Shown: positions 7,219 through 24,859 of the stretch, one piece after another
Numbering within the stretch: position 1 is the stretch's first letter
How the letters are laid out: each line of letters opens with the position of its first letter
From: Hydrogenophaga sp.
GTDB taxonomy: Bacteria > Pseudomonadota > Gammaproteobacteria > Burkholderiales > Burkholderiaceae_C
Direction of reading: 5' to 3'
Length of the DNA: 64,000 bases
NCBI RefSeq assembly: GCF_025699295.1
Contig: NZ_JAILWB010000004.1
Span: 62,001-126,000 of the forward strand
Position numbers and translations under genes: made by a program
Notes under the pieces: model-generated
What the model was told of the DNA's origin: nothing
Databases searched by the model: none
Seen by the model: only the letters and a program-made list of their open reading frames with translations

Positions 7219-7346
7219 CAGAAACAGCTCCAGAGCTGGTCGGCCAGACTGACCAGGAATTCGGGTCGCTGGTACAGCGCCAGCGTGGCCAGCAGGCCCG
7301 CGACCACCGCAGTCCACACCAGAACGCGCGTGGCCAGGGGTCTCAA
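7218..7346 (-). CDS. Small single-span membrane protein, not in the ORF track
   Basis: A TTG start at 7346 opens a 42-residue frame with one hydrophobic helix (VLVWTAVVAGLLATLALY) and a short polar end ending ADQLWSCF. It fits the gap between its neighbours exactly: the TTG overlaps the MFS stop by 4 bases (TTGA), and its own TGA overlaps the methyltransferase ATG by one base (TGATG). Such interlocking overlaps on both sides argue for a translated, coupled gene. I believe similar small proteins occur at this position in related bacteria but cannot verify that here. Function unknown; it is likely an inner-membrane protein. Confidence 0.6.
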   Translation of the reverse strand: MRPLATRVLVWTAVVAGLLATLALYQRPEFLVSLADQLWSCF

Positions 7347-8593
7347 GCCGGGGCCCCCGCGCGCAGTGGTTCGCGCACGATCGGTGTCTCGCGCACCGGC
7401 AGGTTGATCAGGCCGGCGAAGACGCCCAGCGCGATCGCGAGATACCAGACGATGTCATAGCTGCCGGTGCGGTCGTAGAGCACCCCACCCAGCCACACGC
7501 CCATGAAGCTGCCGATCTGGTGGCTGAAGAAGATGAAGCCGCCCAGCATCGACATGTGGGCCACGCCGAAGATCTGCGCCACCACGGCGTTGGTGGGCGG
7601 GATCGTCGAGAGCCACAGCAGGCCCATGACACTGGCAAAGATGTACACGCTCATCGGCGACAGCGGCGCAATCAGGAACACCGCGATGACGGCGGCGCGC
7701 GCAAAGTAGATGAAAGCCAGGATGTGGCGCTTGGCCAGGCGCTGGCCCAGCGCACCGGCGGCGTAGGTGCCGACCACGTTGAACAGACCGATGAGCGCGA
7801 GCGCATAGCTCGCCACCTGGGGGGACAGGCCGTTGTCCTTGAGGTAGCTGGGCATGTGCACGCCGATGAAGACGACCTGGAAGCCACAGACGAAATAGCC
7901 GGCCATGAGCAACTGGAAGCTGCGGTAGCGGAACGCCTCGCGCAGCGCCTGCGCGATGGTCTGCTCGCGCATGGGTGCCACGCCGCCGGTGAAACCCGGC
8001 TCGCGCAGGCCCAGGGCCAGCGGCACGATCAGCAGCACCGCGGCGCCCAGGAACAGCAACGCTTCCTGCCAGCCAAAGCTGCTGATGAGCCAGCCCTCCA
8101 CCGGCACCATGAGGAACTGGCCGAACGAGCCAGCGGCCGCGGCCACGCCCATGGCCCAGGAGCGCTTTTCGGCCGGAATCTGCCGGCCGATCACGCCGTA
8201 GATCACCGCGTAGGTGGTACCGGCCTGGGCCGCGCCGATCAGCACGCCGGCGGTGAGCGCGAAGCCCAGGGACGAGGTGCTCAGCGCCATGCCGGCCAGG
8301 CCCAGCCCGTACAGCAGCGCGCCCCCGATCAGCACGCGGAAGGCGCCGAAGCGGTCGGCCGCCATGCCGGCGAAGATGCCGAACACGCCCCAGGAGAGGT
8401 TCTGGATGGCCAGCGCGAACGAGAAGGTCTCGCGCGTCCAGCCCTGGGCCTGGGTGATCGGTTGCAGCCACAGCCCGAAGCCGTGGCGGATGCCCATGGA
8501 CAGCGTGACGATCAGGGCACCGCAGGCGAGCACCTGCAGGGCCGACAGGCGAGGTATGGACGGTACGGGGGCAGGGTGTGGCGTTGAAGACAT
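7343..8593 (-). CDS. MFS transporter (oxalate/formate antiporter-like)
   Basis: The start is set at 8593 (MSSTPHPAPVPSIPRLSA); longer versions in the track would add an arginine-rich, non-membrane leader that runs into the parE promoter. The 416-residue product has twelve predicted membrane spans and MFS loop motifs such as GMAADRFGAFRVLIGG between spans 2 and 3. The opening GIRHGFGLWLQPITQAQGW is typical of the MFS group that includes monocarboxylate and oxalate/formate carriers. Substrate unknown. A -10-like TACATT lies 7 bases before the ATG, and no Shine-Dalgarno is seen, so the mRNA may be leaderless. Confidence 0.87.
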   Translation of the reverse strand: MSSTPHPAPVPSIPRLSALQVLACGALIVTLSMGIRHGFGLWLQPITQAQGWTRETFSFALAIQNLSWGVFGIFAGMAADRFGAFRVLIGGALLYGLGLAGMALSTSSLGFALTAGVLIGAAQAGTTYAVIYGVIGRQIPAEKRSWAMGVAAAAGSFGQFLMVPVEGWLISSFGWQEALLFLGAAVLLIVPLALGLREPGFTGGVAPMREQTIAQALREAFRYRSFQLLMAGYFVCGFQVVFIGVHMPSYLKDNGLSPQVASYALALIGLFNVVGTYAAGALGQRLAKRHILAFIYFARAAVIAVFLIAPLSPMSVYIFASVMGLLWLSTIPPTNAVVAQIFGVAHMSMLGGFIFFSHQIGSFMGVWLGGVLYDRTGSYDIVWYLAIALGVFAGLINLPVRETPIVREPLRAGAPA

Positions 8594-8698: not shown

Positions 8699-8714
8699 CT
8701 GTATTTGTATACAG
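8699..8714. promoter_or_regulatory. LexA-type SOS box upstream of parE
   Basis: The sequence CTGTATTTGTATACAG fits the CTGT-N8-ACAG LexA operator of gamma- and betaproteobacteria exactly, with 6-base perfect arms (CTGTAT/ATACAG). It lies 34 bases before the parE start codon and just ahead of a -10-like TACAAT, so it would cover the -35 region. The MFS gene start is 105 bases away on the other side. Confidence 0.65.
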
Positions 8715-8734: not shown

Positions 8735-8740
8735 TACAAT
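8735..8740 (+). promoter_or_regulatory. -10 element of a probable leaderless parE transcript
   Basis: TACAAT, 8 bases before the parE ATG, matches the -10 consensus at five of six positions. The C-rich bases between it and the ATG hold no Shine-Dalgarno, so transcription probably starts at or beside the start codon. The -35 region is poor and overlaps the LexA-type box. Confidence 0.5.
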
Positions 8741-8748
8741 CCGCCCCC

Positions 8749-10719
8749 ATGGCGATCCAAACACCCAACGAATATTCCGAAGGCTCGATCCGCGTCCTCA
8801 AGGGGCTGGAGCCGGTCAAGCAGCGCCCGGGCATGTACACCCGCACCGACAACCCGCTGCACATCATCCAGGAAGTGCTGGACAACGCGGCCGACGAGGC
8901 CCTGGCCGGGCATGGCAAGAAGATCAAGGTCACGCTGCACACTGACCATTCGGTGAGCGTGGAGGACGATGGCCGGGGCATTCCGTTCGGCCTGCACCCC
9001 GAGGAAAAGGCCCCGGTGGTCGAACTCGTGTTCACCCGGTTGCACGCGGGCGGCAAGTTCGACAAGGGCAAGGGCGGCGCCTACAGCTTCTCCGGTGGCC
9101 TGCACGGGGTGGGTGTGAGCGTGACCAATGCGCTCTCCACCCGACTGGAGGTGACCAGCTTCCGCGACGGCCAGGTGGCAAGGCTGGCGTTCTCAGGCGG
9201 GGACGTGACCGAACCCCTGGCACTGGCTCCTCGGGGCGAGGGCGACCGCAAGCAGGGCACCACCGTGCGCGCCTGGCCCGACGCGAAATACTTCGAATCC
9301 GCCACGCTGCCCATGGCCGAGCTCACCCACCTGCTGCGCAGCAAGGCGGTGCTGATGCCGGGCGTGACGGTGACGCTGGTCAACGAAAAGACGAAGGACG
9401 TGCAGACCTGGCTCTACAAGGGCGGCCTGCGCGACTACCTGCAGCAGACCCTGACCGGCGACCCGGTGATCCCGCTGTTCGAGGGCGAAGGCTTTGCCGA
9501 CAGCGGGCACGACAGCTTTGCCGAAGGCGAGGGCGCGGCCTGGTGCGTGGCCTTCACAGAAGACGGCCAGCCGGTGCGCGAGAGCTACGTCAACCTCATT
9601 CCCACCAGCGCCGGCGGCACGCACGACAGCGGCCTGCGCGACGGCCTGTTCCAGGCCGTCAAGAGCTTCATCGAACTGCACGCGCTCCTGCCCAAGGGGG
9701 TGAAGCTGCTGCCCGAGGACGTGTTCGCGCGCGCCAGCTATGTGCTCAGCGCCAAGGTGCTGGACCCGCAGTTCCAGGGCCAGATCAAGGAGCGCCTGAA
9801 CTCGCGCGACGCCGTGCGCCTGGTCGGCAGCTTCGTGCGCCCGGCGCTGGAACTCTGGCTCAACCAGCACGTGGACTACGGCCGCAAGCTCGCCGAACTC
9901 GCCATCAAGGCCGCGCAGTCGCGGCAGAAGGCGGGCCAGAAGGTCGAGAAGCGCAAGGGCTCGGGCGTGGCCGTGCTGCCGGGCAAGCTCACCGATTGCG
10001 AGAGCAAGGACCTGGCGCACAACGAGGTGTTCCTGGTCGAAGGCGATTCGGCCGGTGGCAGCGCCAAGATGGGCCGCGACAAGGAGTGCCAGGCTGTGCT
10101 GCCGCTGCGTGGCAAGGTGCTCAACACCTGGGAGGTCGAGCGCGACCGCCTGTTCGCCAACACCGAGATCCACGACATCGCGGTCGCCATCGGCGTCGAT
10201 CCGCACGGCCCGAACGACACGCCCGACCTCTCGGGCCTGCGCTACGGCAAGGTTTGCATCCTGTCCGACGCCGACGTCGACGGCTCGCACATCCAGGTGC
10301 TGCTGCTCACCCTGTTCTTCCGGCACTTTCCGAAACTCATCGAAGCCGGTCACGTGTTCGTGGCGCGCCCGCCGCTGTTTCGCGTGGACATTCCCGCGCG
10401 CGGCAAGAAGCCCGCGGCCAAGCAGTACGCGCTGGACGAAGGCGAACTGCACGCCATCCTGGACAAATGTGGCAAGGACGGCGTGGCGCCAGAGAAGTGC
10501 CAGATCAGCCGCTTCAAGGGCCTGGGCGAAATGAGCGCGGAGCAGCTGTGGGACACCACGCTCAACCCCGACACGCGCCGCCTCATGCCCGTGGTGCTCG
10601 GCGCGATCGACTTCGCCGGCACCGAGGCCCTCATCACCAAGCTCATGGGCAAGGGCGAAGCCGCCTCGCGCCGCGAGCTCATGGAGTTGCACGGCGACTC
10701 GGTGGAAATCGATATCTGA
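8749..10719 (+). CDS. parE: DNA topoisomerase IV subunit B
   Basis: The ATG at 8749 (MAIQTPNEYS) gives 656 residues, the usual ParE length; the upstream extension in the track has no homology to the family. The GHKL ATPase motifs are EVLDNAADEA with the Mg-binding Asn46, VEDDGRGIP near residue 71, and GLHGVGVSVTNALS. The TOPRIM domain carries EGDSAGGSAKMGRDK near residue 430 and SDADVDGSHI near 505. With ParC it decatenates daughter chromosomes. GyrB-type length and insert are absent and parC follows after 12 bases, which supports ParE over GyrB. A LexA-type box sits in its promoter. Confidence 0.96.
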   Translation: MAIQTPNEYSEGSIRVLKGLEPVKQRPGMYTRTDNPLHIIQEVLDNAADEALAGHGKKIKVTLHTDHSVSVEDDGRGIPFGLHPEEKAPVVELVFTRLHAGGKFDKGKGGAYSFSGGLHGVGVSVTNALSTRLEVTSFRDGQVARLAFSGGDVTEPLALAPRGEGDRKQGTTVRAWPDAKYFESATLPMAELTHLLRSKAVLMPGVTVTLVNEKTKDVQTWLYKGGLRDYLQQTLTGDPVIPLFEGEGFADSGHDSFAEGEGAAWCVAFTEDGQPVRESYVNLIPTSAGGTHDSGLRDGLFQAVKSFIELHALLPKGVKLLPEDVFARASYVLSAKVLDPQFQGQIKERLNSRDAVRLVGSFVRPALELWLNQHVDYGRKLAELAIKAAQSRQKAGQKVEKRKGSGVAVLPGKLTDCESKDLAHNEVFLVEGDSAGGSAKMGRDKECQAVLPLRGKVLNTWEVERDRLFANTEIHDIAVAIGVDPHGPNDTPDLSGLRYGKVCILSDADVDGSHIQVLLLTLFFRHFPKLIEAGHVFVARPPLFRVDIPARGKKPAAKQYALDEGELHAILDKCGKDGVAPEKCQISRFKGLGEMSAEQLWDTTLNPDTRRLMPVVLGAIDFAGTEALITKLMGKGEAASRRELMELHGDSVEIDI

Positions 10720-10731
10720 GTTTGAACATCC

Positions 10732-13083
<2,352 letters not shown>

Positions 13084-13090
13084 GGCCGGC

Positions 13091-14191
13091 ATGGCGCGTT
13101 CGCCCACGCTGGCCGAGCTGCGCCGCTACGCAATAGCGCGCAGCCTGTTCAAACCGGTGACGTTGCCGGCGGCCATCCGCCGGCTGGGTTTCGTGCAGGC
13201 CGACCCGATGCGCGCACCCGCCCGTGCGCAGGACCTCATCCTCTTCCAGCGCGTGCGCGACTACCGCGCGGGTGACCTGGAGCGCCGCTACGAGCGACTG
13301 GCGATCGAGGAAGACGCCTTTGTCAATTACGGCTTCGTGCCGCGCGAGATGCTGGCCCTGCTGCACCCGCGCACGCCGCGCCAGCCCTGGGACGAGGCCA
13401 CGGTGCGCCGCGCGCGGGAGGTGCTGGACTTCGTGCGGGAGCGCGGCGCGGTGCATCCCCGTGAAGTGGGCGAAGTCTTTGTGCATCACGGCCGCGTGCC
13501 CGGGTACTGGGGTGGCGAGCTCAATGCGAGCACCCGCCTGCTCGAGCACATGCACCACCACGGCTGGCTGCGCGTGCGCCGCCGCGAATCCGGCACGCGG
13601 GTGTACGAAGCGATCAGGCACGCCGAACAGGACGAGAGCCCATCGGCCCGCCTGGCGCGTGCCCAGGCGCTGGTCGACGCCATCGTGGCGCTGTACGCAC
13701 CGATCCCTTCACCCAGCCTGGGCTACCTGGTGACGCTGTTGCGCTACGGGGCTCCCCATCTTTCGGTTGAAGCCCGTGCGGTGGTGAAAGCGGCCCGCGA
13801 GCGCTACGGTCATGCCGTGGTCGATGGCACCACCTGGTTCTGGCCGGCGGATGAAAACCCGGTCTCGCGCCGCCACCAGCCCGGTGAGGGCCTGCGCTTT
13901 CTCGCACCGTTCGATCCCGTCGTCTGGGACCGGCGGCGCTTCGAGATGCTGTGGGGCTGGGCCTACCGCTTCGAGGCCTACGTACCGGCCGCGAAGCGCA
14001 CCATGGGCCACTACGCGCTGCCCGTGCTGTGGGGCGAGCAGGTGGTGGGCTGGGCCAACATGCGTGTGGAACGCGGCCATCTTCGGCACCAGTTGGGATT
14101 TGCGGGAGCCCGTGCGCGGGACGCAGGATTCCAGCGGGCGCTGGACGAGGAACTGGCACGTTTCGAAATCTTCCTGGAACAGGGGAACTGA
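13091..14191 (+). CDS. Winged-helix DNA glycosylase of the AlkZ/YcaQ family
   Basis: The ATG at 13091 (MARSPTLAELRRYAIA) gives 366 residues of the HTH_42 (tandem winged-helix) family. The catalytic Q-x-D signature of the YcaQ (AlkX) branch is visible as Q36-A-D38 in RRLGFVQADPMRAPARAQD; AlkZ itself uses Q-x-Q. YcaQ-type enzymes remove bulky N-alkyl purines and unhook interstrand crosslinks. Other family hallmarks are LAPFDPVVWDRRRFEMLWGW and RTMGHYALPVLWG. It begins 7 bases after parC, so this repair gene is in the same transcript as topoisomerase IV, behind the LexA-type box. Confidence 0.85.
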   Translation: MARSPTLAELRRYAIARSLFKPVTLPAAIRRLGFVQADPMRAPARAQDLILFQRVRDYRAGDLERRYERLAIEEDAFVNYGFVPREMLALLHPRTPRQPWDEATVRRAREVLDFVRERGAVHPREVGEVFVHHGRVPGYWGGELNASTRLLEHMHHHGWLRVRRRESGTRVYEAIRHAEQDESPSARLARAQALVDAIVALYAPIPSPSLGYLVTLLRYGAPHLSVEARAVVKAARERYGHAVVDGTTWFWPADENPVSRRHQPGEGLRFLAPFDPVVWDRRRFEMLWGWAYRFEAYVPAAKRTMGHYALPVLWGEQVVGWANMRVERGHLRHQLGFAGARARDAGFQRALDEELARFEIFLEQGN

Positions 14192-22375: not shown

Positions 22376-24859
22376 TTGCACGGGCGCGTGCCGGCCGGTC
22401 TGATCGTGGGGCACCGGGGTTTCGTGGTCCTGGCCGGCTGGGTGCTGGGTGTGGCCCTGCAACTTCAGCAGCCCGCGCTCTGGGCAGGACCGGTTTATGC
22501 CGCCTTGCTGCTGGTCGGCGTTGTCGGGGTGCTGATGCTGTTCCGGCGCCGTGCCATCGGGTCCCTGCCGCCTGCCATTGTGCTCGCAGCAGCCTTGCTG
22601 ACCGGCGCCATGGTCGGCGCCGGCCTGACCGGCGCCCGTGCCGTGCTGTTTGTCGCCGACGCGCTCGACCCGACCCTGCAGGGGATTGACGTCGAGATCA
22701 CCGGGCGCATCGCCTCGTTGCCGCAGCGCGGCGCCCAGGGTGAACGCTTCGAGTTCGTGGTGGAGTCGGCCACGCATGCGAGTGAGGCCGTGTCGCTGCC
22801 GCCGCGCCTGCAACTGGGCTGGTACGGCGGCGTTGGCGCCCTGCCCGAGGTGGGAGCCTGGCAGTTGTCGGCCGGCAGCCCCGGTCTGCGCGCGGGCGAG
22901 CGCTGGCGCTTCACCGTGCGCCTGCGCAGCCCGCATGGCAATGCCAACCCGCACGGCTTTGACCGCGAGCGCTGGCTCTGGGAGCGGGGCATACAGGCCA
23001 CGGGCTATGTGCGCAGTGGCCCACGCGACCCGGCGCCGCGGCGGCTGGGCGCCACGTTGCGGCACCCGCTGGACACGCTGCGGCAGACGGTGAGCGAGCG
23101 CATCGAAGCCCGTGTGGCGGACGACCCGCGCAGTGCTGGCGTGCTGGCCGCGCTGGTGGTGGGCGAGCAGTCGGCCATCGACCGCGCCGACTGGGACCTG
23201 TTCCGCACCACAGGCGTGGCTCACCTGATGAGCATTTCGGGCTTGCATGTGACGCTGTTCGCCTGGCTGGCCACTGCGCTGGTGGGTGTGCTCTGGCGGC
23301 GCCTGGCGCACCGCTGGCCGCAGGCCCTTCTGGCCGTGCCCACACCCTGGGCTGCGGGCATGGGTGGCGTGGCGCTGGCCACGGCCTATGCGCTGTTTTC
23401 GGGCTGGGGCGTGCCGGCGCAGCGCACCGTGCTCATGCTGGCGGTGGTGGTGGGTCTGCGCCTGGGTGTGCGCCACTGGCCCTGGCCCATGGTCTGGCTG
23501 CTGGCCATGGCCGTGGTGCTGCTGCTCGACCCCTGGGCACTGATGCAGGCTGGCTTCTGGCTCAGTTTCGTGGCGGTGGGCATCCTGTTCGCCACCGATC
23601 CGGGGCGGCGGCGCCGGGCGCCGCATGGGGAGGAGGGAGACCCCCAGGCCTGGCTGTGGCGCGGCGTGCGGGCCATGCAGGGTCTGGTGCGTGAACAGGG
23701 GGTGGTCACGGTGGCGCTCGCGCCGCTCACGCTGCTGCTGTTCGGCCAGTTCTCTGTGGTCGGGCTGCTGGCCAACCTGGTCGCCATTCCCTGGGTGACG
23801 CTGCTGGTCACGCCGCTGGCGCTGCTGGGCGTGCTGGTGCCGCCGCTGTGGGAGGTGGCTGGCTGGGCCGTGCAGGGTCTTTCGCTGTGCCTGCAATGGC
23901 TGGCCCAGTGGTCCTGGGCCGCCCTGTTCCGGCCTGTCGCGCCCTGGCCACTGGCGCTGGCCGCGGTGGCCGGCGGCGTGCTGCTGGTGCTGCGCCTGCC
24001 CTGGGCCGTGCGGCTGGCGGGCCCGTTGCTGGTGTGGCCGGCGCTGCTGTACATGCCGCCGCGTCCTGCGATCGGTGAGTTCGATCTGCTGGCGCTGGAC
24101 GTGGGGCAGGGCAGCGCGGTGCTGCTGCGCACCGCGCGCCACAGCCTGCTGTACGACACCGGGCCGCGGTACGGCCCACAACCCGATGCCGCCGACGCCG
24201 GTGACCGTGTGGTGCTGCCGGTGCTGCGCGCGCTGGGCGAGCGCCTGGGCGCCGTGGTGGTGAGCCACCGCGACAGCGACCACGCGGGCGGTGCGGCCTC
24301 GGTGCAGGCGGCGCAGCCGCAGGCGCGCTGGCTCTCGTCGTTCGACACCGACCCGGCGCGCCGCTGCGTGGCTGGCCAGCGCTGGCAATGGGACGGTGTG
24401 GACTTCGAGGTCCTGCACCCACAGCCTGGCGACTACGCCGACGATGGCACGGCCCGCCTCGCCAGCAACGCCATGTCCTGCGTGCTGCGCGTCTCCAGCG
24501 GTGCGCACAGCGCCTGGCTGGGGGGCGATATCGACGCCACACGCGAGGTGCGGCTGGCGCTGGCGCGACCCGACGAGCGTGCCACCGTACTGCTCGCACC
24601 GCATCACGGCAGCCGCACGTCCAGCAGCCCGGTGCTGCTCAACACCCTGCAGCCGCGCTGGGTGCTGGTGCAGTCGGGGTATCGCAACCGCTTCGGCCAC
24701 CCGGCACCGGCCGTGCTGGAGCGCTACGCGCAGCGCGGCATCCGATGGGTGAACTCGCCTGAATGCGGGGCCGCCACCTGGAACAGCGCCCGGCCCGATG
24801 CCGTCGTGTGCCAGCGCGAGGTGTATCGGCGGTACTGGCATGCCATGCCAAATGAATAG
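22376..24859 (+). CDS. comEC: DNA internalisation competence protein ComEC/Rec2
   Basis: The 827-residue product forms the inner-membrane channel through which single-stranded DNA enters during transformation. It has an N-terminal membrane and DUF4131-type region, the Competence domain with LMSISGLHVTLFAWLATA near residue 285, and a C-terminal metallo-beta-lactamase domain with LDVGQGSAVLLRT near 575 and the metal-type motif SHRDSDHAGG near 631, later LAPHHGSRTSSS. The start is uncertain: no ATG exists near the N-terminus, so TTG 22376, GTG 22388 or GTG 22406 must be used. It is divergent from the DUF2126 gene. Confidence 0.9.
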   Translation: MHGRVPAGLIVGHRGFVVLAGWVLGVALQLQQPALWAGPVYAALLLVGVVGVLMLFRRRAIGSLPPAIVLAAALLTGAMVGAGLTGARAVLFVADALDPTLQGIDVEITGRIASLPQRGAQGERFEFVVESATHASEAVSLPPRLQLGWYGGVGALPEVGAWQLSAGSPGLRAGERWRFTVRLRSPHGNANPHGFDRERWLWERGIQATGYVRSGPRDPAPRRLGATLRHPLDTLRQTVSERIEARVADDPRSAGVLAALVVGEQSAIDRADWDLFRTTGVAHLMSISGLHVTLFAWLATALVGVLWRRLAHRWPQALLAVPTPWAAGMGGVALATAYALFSGWGVPAQRTVLMLAVVVGLRLGVRHWPWPMVWLLAMAVVLLLDPWALMQAGFWLSFVAVGILFATDPGRRRRAPHGEEGDPQAWLWRGVRAMQGLVREQGVVTVALAPLTLLLFGQFSVVGLLANLVAIPWVTLLVTPLALLGVLVPPLWEVAGWAVQGLSLCLQWLAQWSWAALFRPVAPWPLALAAVAGGVLLVLRLPWAVRLAGPLLVWPALLYMPPRPAIGEFDLLALDVGQGSAVLLRTARHSLLYDTGPRYGPQPDAADAGDRVVLPVLRALGERLGAVVVSHRDSDHAGGAASVQAAQPQARWLSSFDTDPARRCVAGQRWQWDGVDFEVLHPQPGDYADDGTARLASNAMSCVLRVSSGAHSAWLGGDIDATREVRLALARPDERATVLLAPHHGSRTSSSPVLLNTLQPRWVLVQSGYRNRFGHPAPAVLERYAQRGIRWVNSPECGAATWNSARPDAVVCQREVYRRYWHAMPNE

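Follow-up and report, generated by a model that had tools for sequence, protein, structure and literature searches.

The window analysed here, a stretch of 64,000 nucleotides, comes from a Hydrogenophaga-like genome whose nearest ParE is that of H. palleronii (96%). It carries a rightward gene cluster that begins with the two subunits of topoisomerase IV (Table 1). The 155-bp gap between parE and a leftward MFS gene, whose ATG lies near position 8593, contains the palindrome CTGTATTTGTATACAG, which ends 35 bp upstream of the parE ATG (8749). The gene order given in the initial annotation, parE-parC followed by a glycosylase and then a small membrane protein, agrees with the coordinates: the glycosylase begins 7 bases past parC and the 59-aa reading frame 2 bases past the glycosylase. 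The assignment of the glycosylase to the YcaQ branch also holds. The YQL branch of PF06224 is defined by a Q-hydrophobic-D catalytic motif (PMC9040887), and VQADP stands at this place in the window protein as in its homologues from Hydrogenophaga. Overall similarity of the glycosylase to characterised members is modest, with one PDB hit (E 1e-11). The 59-aa protein had no match in Pfam or NCBIfam, PADLOC returned no hit for either the glycosylase or the small protein, and no terminator above chance level was detected behind the operon.

Table 1. Features of the parE region, with positions in the window
Feature	Positions	Strand	Basis
Divergent MFS transporter, conserved neighbour	7343..8593	-	PF07690
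Predicted LexA operator (SOS box) CTGTATTTGTATACAG	8699..8714	.	Letters; matrix score 23.4 bits; conservation in 69/81 parE promoters
Predicted -10 of parE, TACAAT	8735..8740	+	20 bp past the box; each of the 81 aligned promoters has TA(C/G)AAT here
parE, topoisomerase IV subunit B	8749..10719	+	TIGR01055 parE_Gneg best model, 692 bits, under the model's cut-off
parC, topoisomerase IV subunit A	10732..13083	+	TIGR01062 parC_Gneg, over cut-off
AlkX/YcaQ-type (AlkZ-like, PF06224) DNA glycosylase	13091..14191	+	PF06224, 156 bits; catalytic motif QAD
Small predicted membrane protein, 59 aa	14194..14373	+	Homologues directly after parC in Hydrogenophaga G128

The palindrome fits CTGT-N8-ACAG exactly and its 6-base arms are perfect, as had been stated beforehand. 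This fit alone is no evidence of function, since the bare pattern occurs 25 times in the 4.69-Mb genome, the same number as its reversed-pattern control, and is thus not enriched genome-wide. Of the 12-base form CTGTATN4ATACAG the 4.69 Mb contain just two copies, one of them the parE box. We scored sites with a LexA matrix of 77 unique sites collected from relatives, using the lexA promoter in 55 genomes and the recA promoter in 22 and leaving all parE sites out. The parE box reached 23.4 bits (training median 17.9, maximum 25.5), so that the dyad matches the LexA boxes of its own clade. The second exact CTGT-N8-ACAG match of the window, at 23198, failed the matrix at 5.4 bits. Apart from the parE box, just one site in the window exceeds 8 bits, a LexA-like sequence of 14.1 bits at 2691-2706, CTGTCCGCAAATCCAG, at the very start of a 387-aa reading frame. 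No close copy was found in the plasmid collection.

A cognate LexA is encoded in the same genome (contig C13), and its promoter has CTGGTTAAAAATACAG and CTGGATGGGCAAACAG. Related lexA promoters carry two boxes in tandem, as a rule CTGGTTAAAAATACAG and CTGGATN4AAACAG with 3 bp between them; recA promoters of related genomes typically have CTGTTCAAGCATCCAG and a second box. Pattern searches of the genome followed by matrix scoring returned boxes at lexA (23.3 bits), at imuA followed by dnaE2 (20.4 bits), near a umuC/SRAP cluster (22.8 bits) and at a PA0069-family radical-SAM gene (20.2 bits). Two further boxes were observed in this genome. One, of 20.4 bits, precedes a Ku gene for non-homologous end joining by several hundred bases (L098, G000:C41:43884); the other, of 22.3 bits, lies about 100 bp upstream of a minus-strand gene for a PF04245 37-kD nucleoid-associated protein (L012, G000:C12:255932).

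A site at or above our threshold of 12 bits is present in 69 of 81 Comamonadaceae-type regions upstream of parE, compared with 0.57% of shuffled sequences and no coding control out of 648. In 65 of these 69 promoters the gap between box and -10 is 19-20 bp, whereas the DNA around the box is not conserved across the aligned promoters. Many of the parE sites read CTGT...CCAG or CTGG...CCAG, relaxed forms that recur in the recA and lexA boxes. Within the GTDB family the box is present in most of the closer members and mostly missing from the more diverged ones, in which the -10 is often TAGAAT; in other families of the order a comparable site was found in 2 of 37 genomes (G135 and G132). Relatives with the order parE-parC-glycosylase have the box wherever the parE promoter was read, with scores of 23.4 bits in the window, 21.8 in H. 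palleronii (L016/L386) and 22.4 in Acidovorax radicis (L028); the weaker ones are those of G398 (13.4 bits) and G408 (15.1 bits). Absence of the box from relatives with this gene order, which the initial annotation had named as refuting its reading, was thus not observed. The original proposal of a LexA-type box is thus strongly supported by an independent matrix, by conservation at a fixed place and by the loss of the box in LexA-less genomes described below.

In the promoter itself, the stretch from the end of the -10 hexamer to the first in-frame start codon measures 8 nt in 63 of the 81 loci and 7-10 nt in 76, and none of the 81 has a Shine-Dalgarno-like sequence between the two. At the place of the -35 hexamer, 67 of 71 box-positive parE promoters show at most two of six matches, and because of this missing element a scan for consensus sigma-70 promoters did not find the promoter. 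The simplest reading is that parE mRNA is probably leaderless across the family and is transcribed from a -10-driven promoter without a recognisable -35. If transcription starts at the parE ATG, the box spans about -48 to -33. The initial annotation had placed it over the parE -35 region, which is right as to position, although no recognisable -35 hexamer lies there.

The distribution of LexA within the family offers a natural comparison. LexA was not found in G035 and in two Giesbergeria-type genomes (G017, G018), all three of which have RecA, and here the boxes are missing at recA and at parE alike. In the family sample, all eight near-complete LexA-less genomes (G307, G351, G310, G324, G266, G274, G378 and G296) are without a box at parE; the TACAAT -10 is retained in seven. 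All 11 genomes that we judge genuinely LexA-less, three from the first set and eight from the family sample, therefore have no box at parE; among LexA-positive genomes of the family sample, 51 have it and 40 do not (Fisher p 0.002, relatedness ignored). On the ParE tree the LexA state changes about six times. A paired phylogenetic comparison points the right way, about three independent pairs being in favour and none opposed, but it is underpowered and not significant (p 0.25). LexA appears to have been lost repeatedly within the family.

Two genomes have a less certain LexA status. The small metagenome-assembled genome G002 has boxes at parE and recA but LexA was not found, and G056, with a doubtful LexA call, has a weak parE box together with recA boxes. 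In both, the absence of LexA is probably an assembly gap; for G002, a small MAG that still has a recA box, lexA probably went unassembled. In the other direction, the box is missing from several genomes that do have LexA. Among them are a Variovorax clade (L063, L072, L095), which has kept LexA and lost the parE box, as well as L026, L048, L088, G277, G313 and most family members that are more diverged. TAGAAT replaces TACAAT as the -10 in boxless L063, L072, L088, L095, L047 and L049, as if promoter strength had been reset upon losing LexA control.

Taken together, the palindrome is almost certainly a true LexA-binding site that has been kept across most of a bacterial family. With high confidence we read it as an operator through which LexA would repress a leaderless, -35-less parE promoter until DNA damage relieves the repression. 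LexA bound from about -48 to -33 would cover the upstream contact region and block RNA polymerase; upon damage, RecA-stimulated self-cleavage of LexA would free the promoter and topoisomerase IV would rise. Judged from their promoters, Comamonadaceae probably make more topoisomerase IV after DNA damage.

LexA normally acts as a repressor. An opposite role, in which LexA binds the box as an activator and recruits polymerase to parE so that damage would lower parE expression, is improbable. It would suit the position of the dyad, whose centre near -41 is the place of class II activators, and the missing -35 of the box-positive promoters. However, LexA-less genomes keep the same -10 and have gained no evident -35, so the -10 seems to work unaided and LexA does not appear to be a needed activator; moreover, the parE box is the same kind of site as the boxes at lexA and recA. 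Still less probable is that the box serves the divergent MFS transporter instead of parE. The two genes share the intergenic region and the MFS gene adjoins parE in most loci, but the spacing of the box is fixed relative to the parE -10, and 9 of 11 loci that have no MFS homologue still carry the box at a distance of 18-20 bp to the -10, which argues that it belongs to parE. A chance palindrome, or a similar dyad of a non-LexA regulator, would agree with the equal counts of the bare pattern and its control but is just as improbable given the matrix score, the conservation in 69 of 81 promoters and the lack of the box in all LexA-less genomes tested save the two with doubtful LexA calls.

Under LexA repression of parE, the genes that respond would depend on the genus. 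The two topoisomerase IV genes are often apart: a distance of no more than 250 bp between parE and parC was observed in just 30 of 76 loci, so the reach of the operator differs among genera. The glycosylase follows parC in 5 of 24 sampled Hydrogenophaga (G000, G389, G397, G398 and G408) and in Acidovorax radicis; next to parC it is thus lineage-specific, confined to the H. palleronii group and one Acidovorax. Five further Hydrogenophaga encode a homologue of about 50% identity, and no parC was found in the flanking DNA that was read. Since the small gene directly follows parC in Hydrogenophaga G128, the glycosylase gene seems to have entered between the two. It is a recent addition behind an operator that also exists in its absence. 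In the lineage of the window, the AlkX-type glycosylase and the small membrane protein, spaced 2-7 bases apart behind parC, could be induced together with topoisomerase IV, and for the glycosylase such co-induction with parE-parC is plausible. The fuller proposal, that one LexA operator at a leaderless, -35-less promoter couples damage-inducible decatenation by topoisomerase IV to the unhooking of interstrand crosslinks by AlkX and makes AlkX SOS-inducible in this lineage, we put forward as tentative.

A LexA operator at parE on the level of the family is a genuine finding of an ordinary kind and a useful extent, and the coupling to crosslink repair is a local variation. Topoisomerase IV would accordingly count as a family-wide SOS gene in Comamonadaceae, probably a long-standing one. 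An essential gene under LexA combined with natural losses of LexA in one family makes a clean system, and it poses the questions of why cells should make decatenation inducible by damage and how their promoters adapt once LexA is lost. Quinolones target topoisomerase IV and induce the SOS response, and the quinolone response of Comamonadaceae could therefore be affected.

To our knowledge, parE and parC of E. coli are not counted among its SOS genes. The box at parE shares motif and dyad with the canonical SOS boxes of the CTGT-N8-ACAG type known from gamma- and betaproteobacteria, and related genomes have this form at lexA and recA too. The initial annotation held that topoisomerase IV genes are not standard SOS genes and that damage-inducible decatenation plus crosslink repair from one operator would be unusual, but control of topoisomerase IV by LexA has been reported before in three other groups. 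In Bacteroidetes the parCE operon is LexA-regulated, and its induction by mitomycin C was confirmed by RT-qPCR (PMC8565304). As predicted here, a topoisomerase IV operon is under the SOS repressor, yet the Bacteroidetes LexA is non-canonical and recognises CTAA-N5-TTAG, with no canonical box of the gamma/beta type. In Sinorhizobium meliloti, parE is listed as SOS regulated in work cited in PMC3323433, with an alphaproteobacterial LexA motif; the text sections of that article do not mention parE for betaproteobacteria, Variovorax paradoxus included. In Streptomyces venezuelae, parE belongs to the LexA regulon, there with an actinobacterial motif and described as an additional topoisomerase IV subunit (PMC9380542). 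In the open literature searched we found no earlier report of LexA-controlled topoisomerase IV for Comamonadaceae, though one may be listed in RegPrecise or in subscription papers. Together with the isolated reports for Alphaproteobacteria, Streptomyces and Bacteroidetes, the family marks decatenation as a recurring output of the SOS response. The glycosylase has its counterpart in E. coli YcaQ/AlkX, a PF06224 protein with the same Q-hydrophobic-D catalytic motif. Expression of E. coli ycaQ is unchanged by a crosslinking agent (PMC7367128); unlike ycaQ, the window gene adjoins parC and lies behind a promoter with a LexA box.
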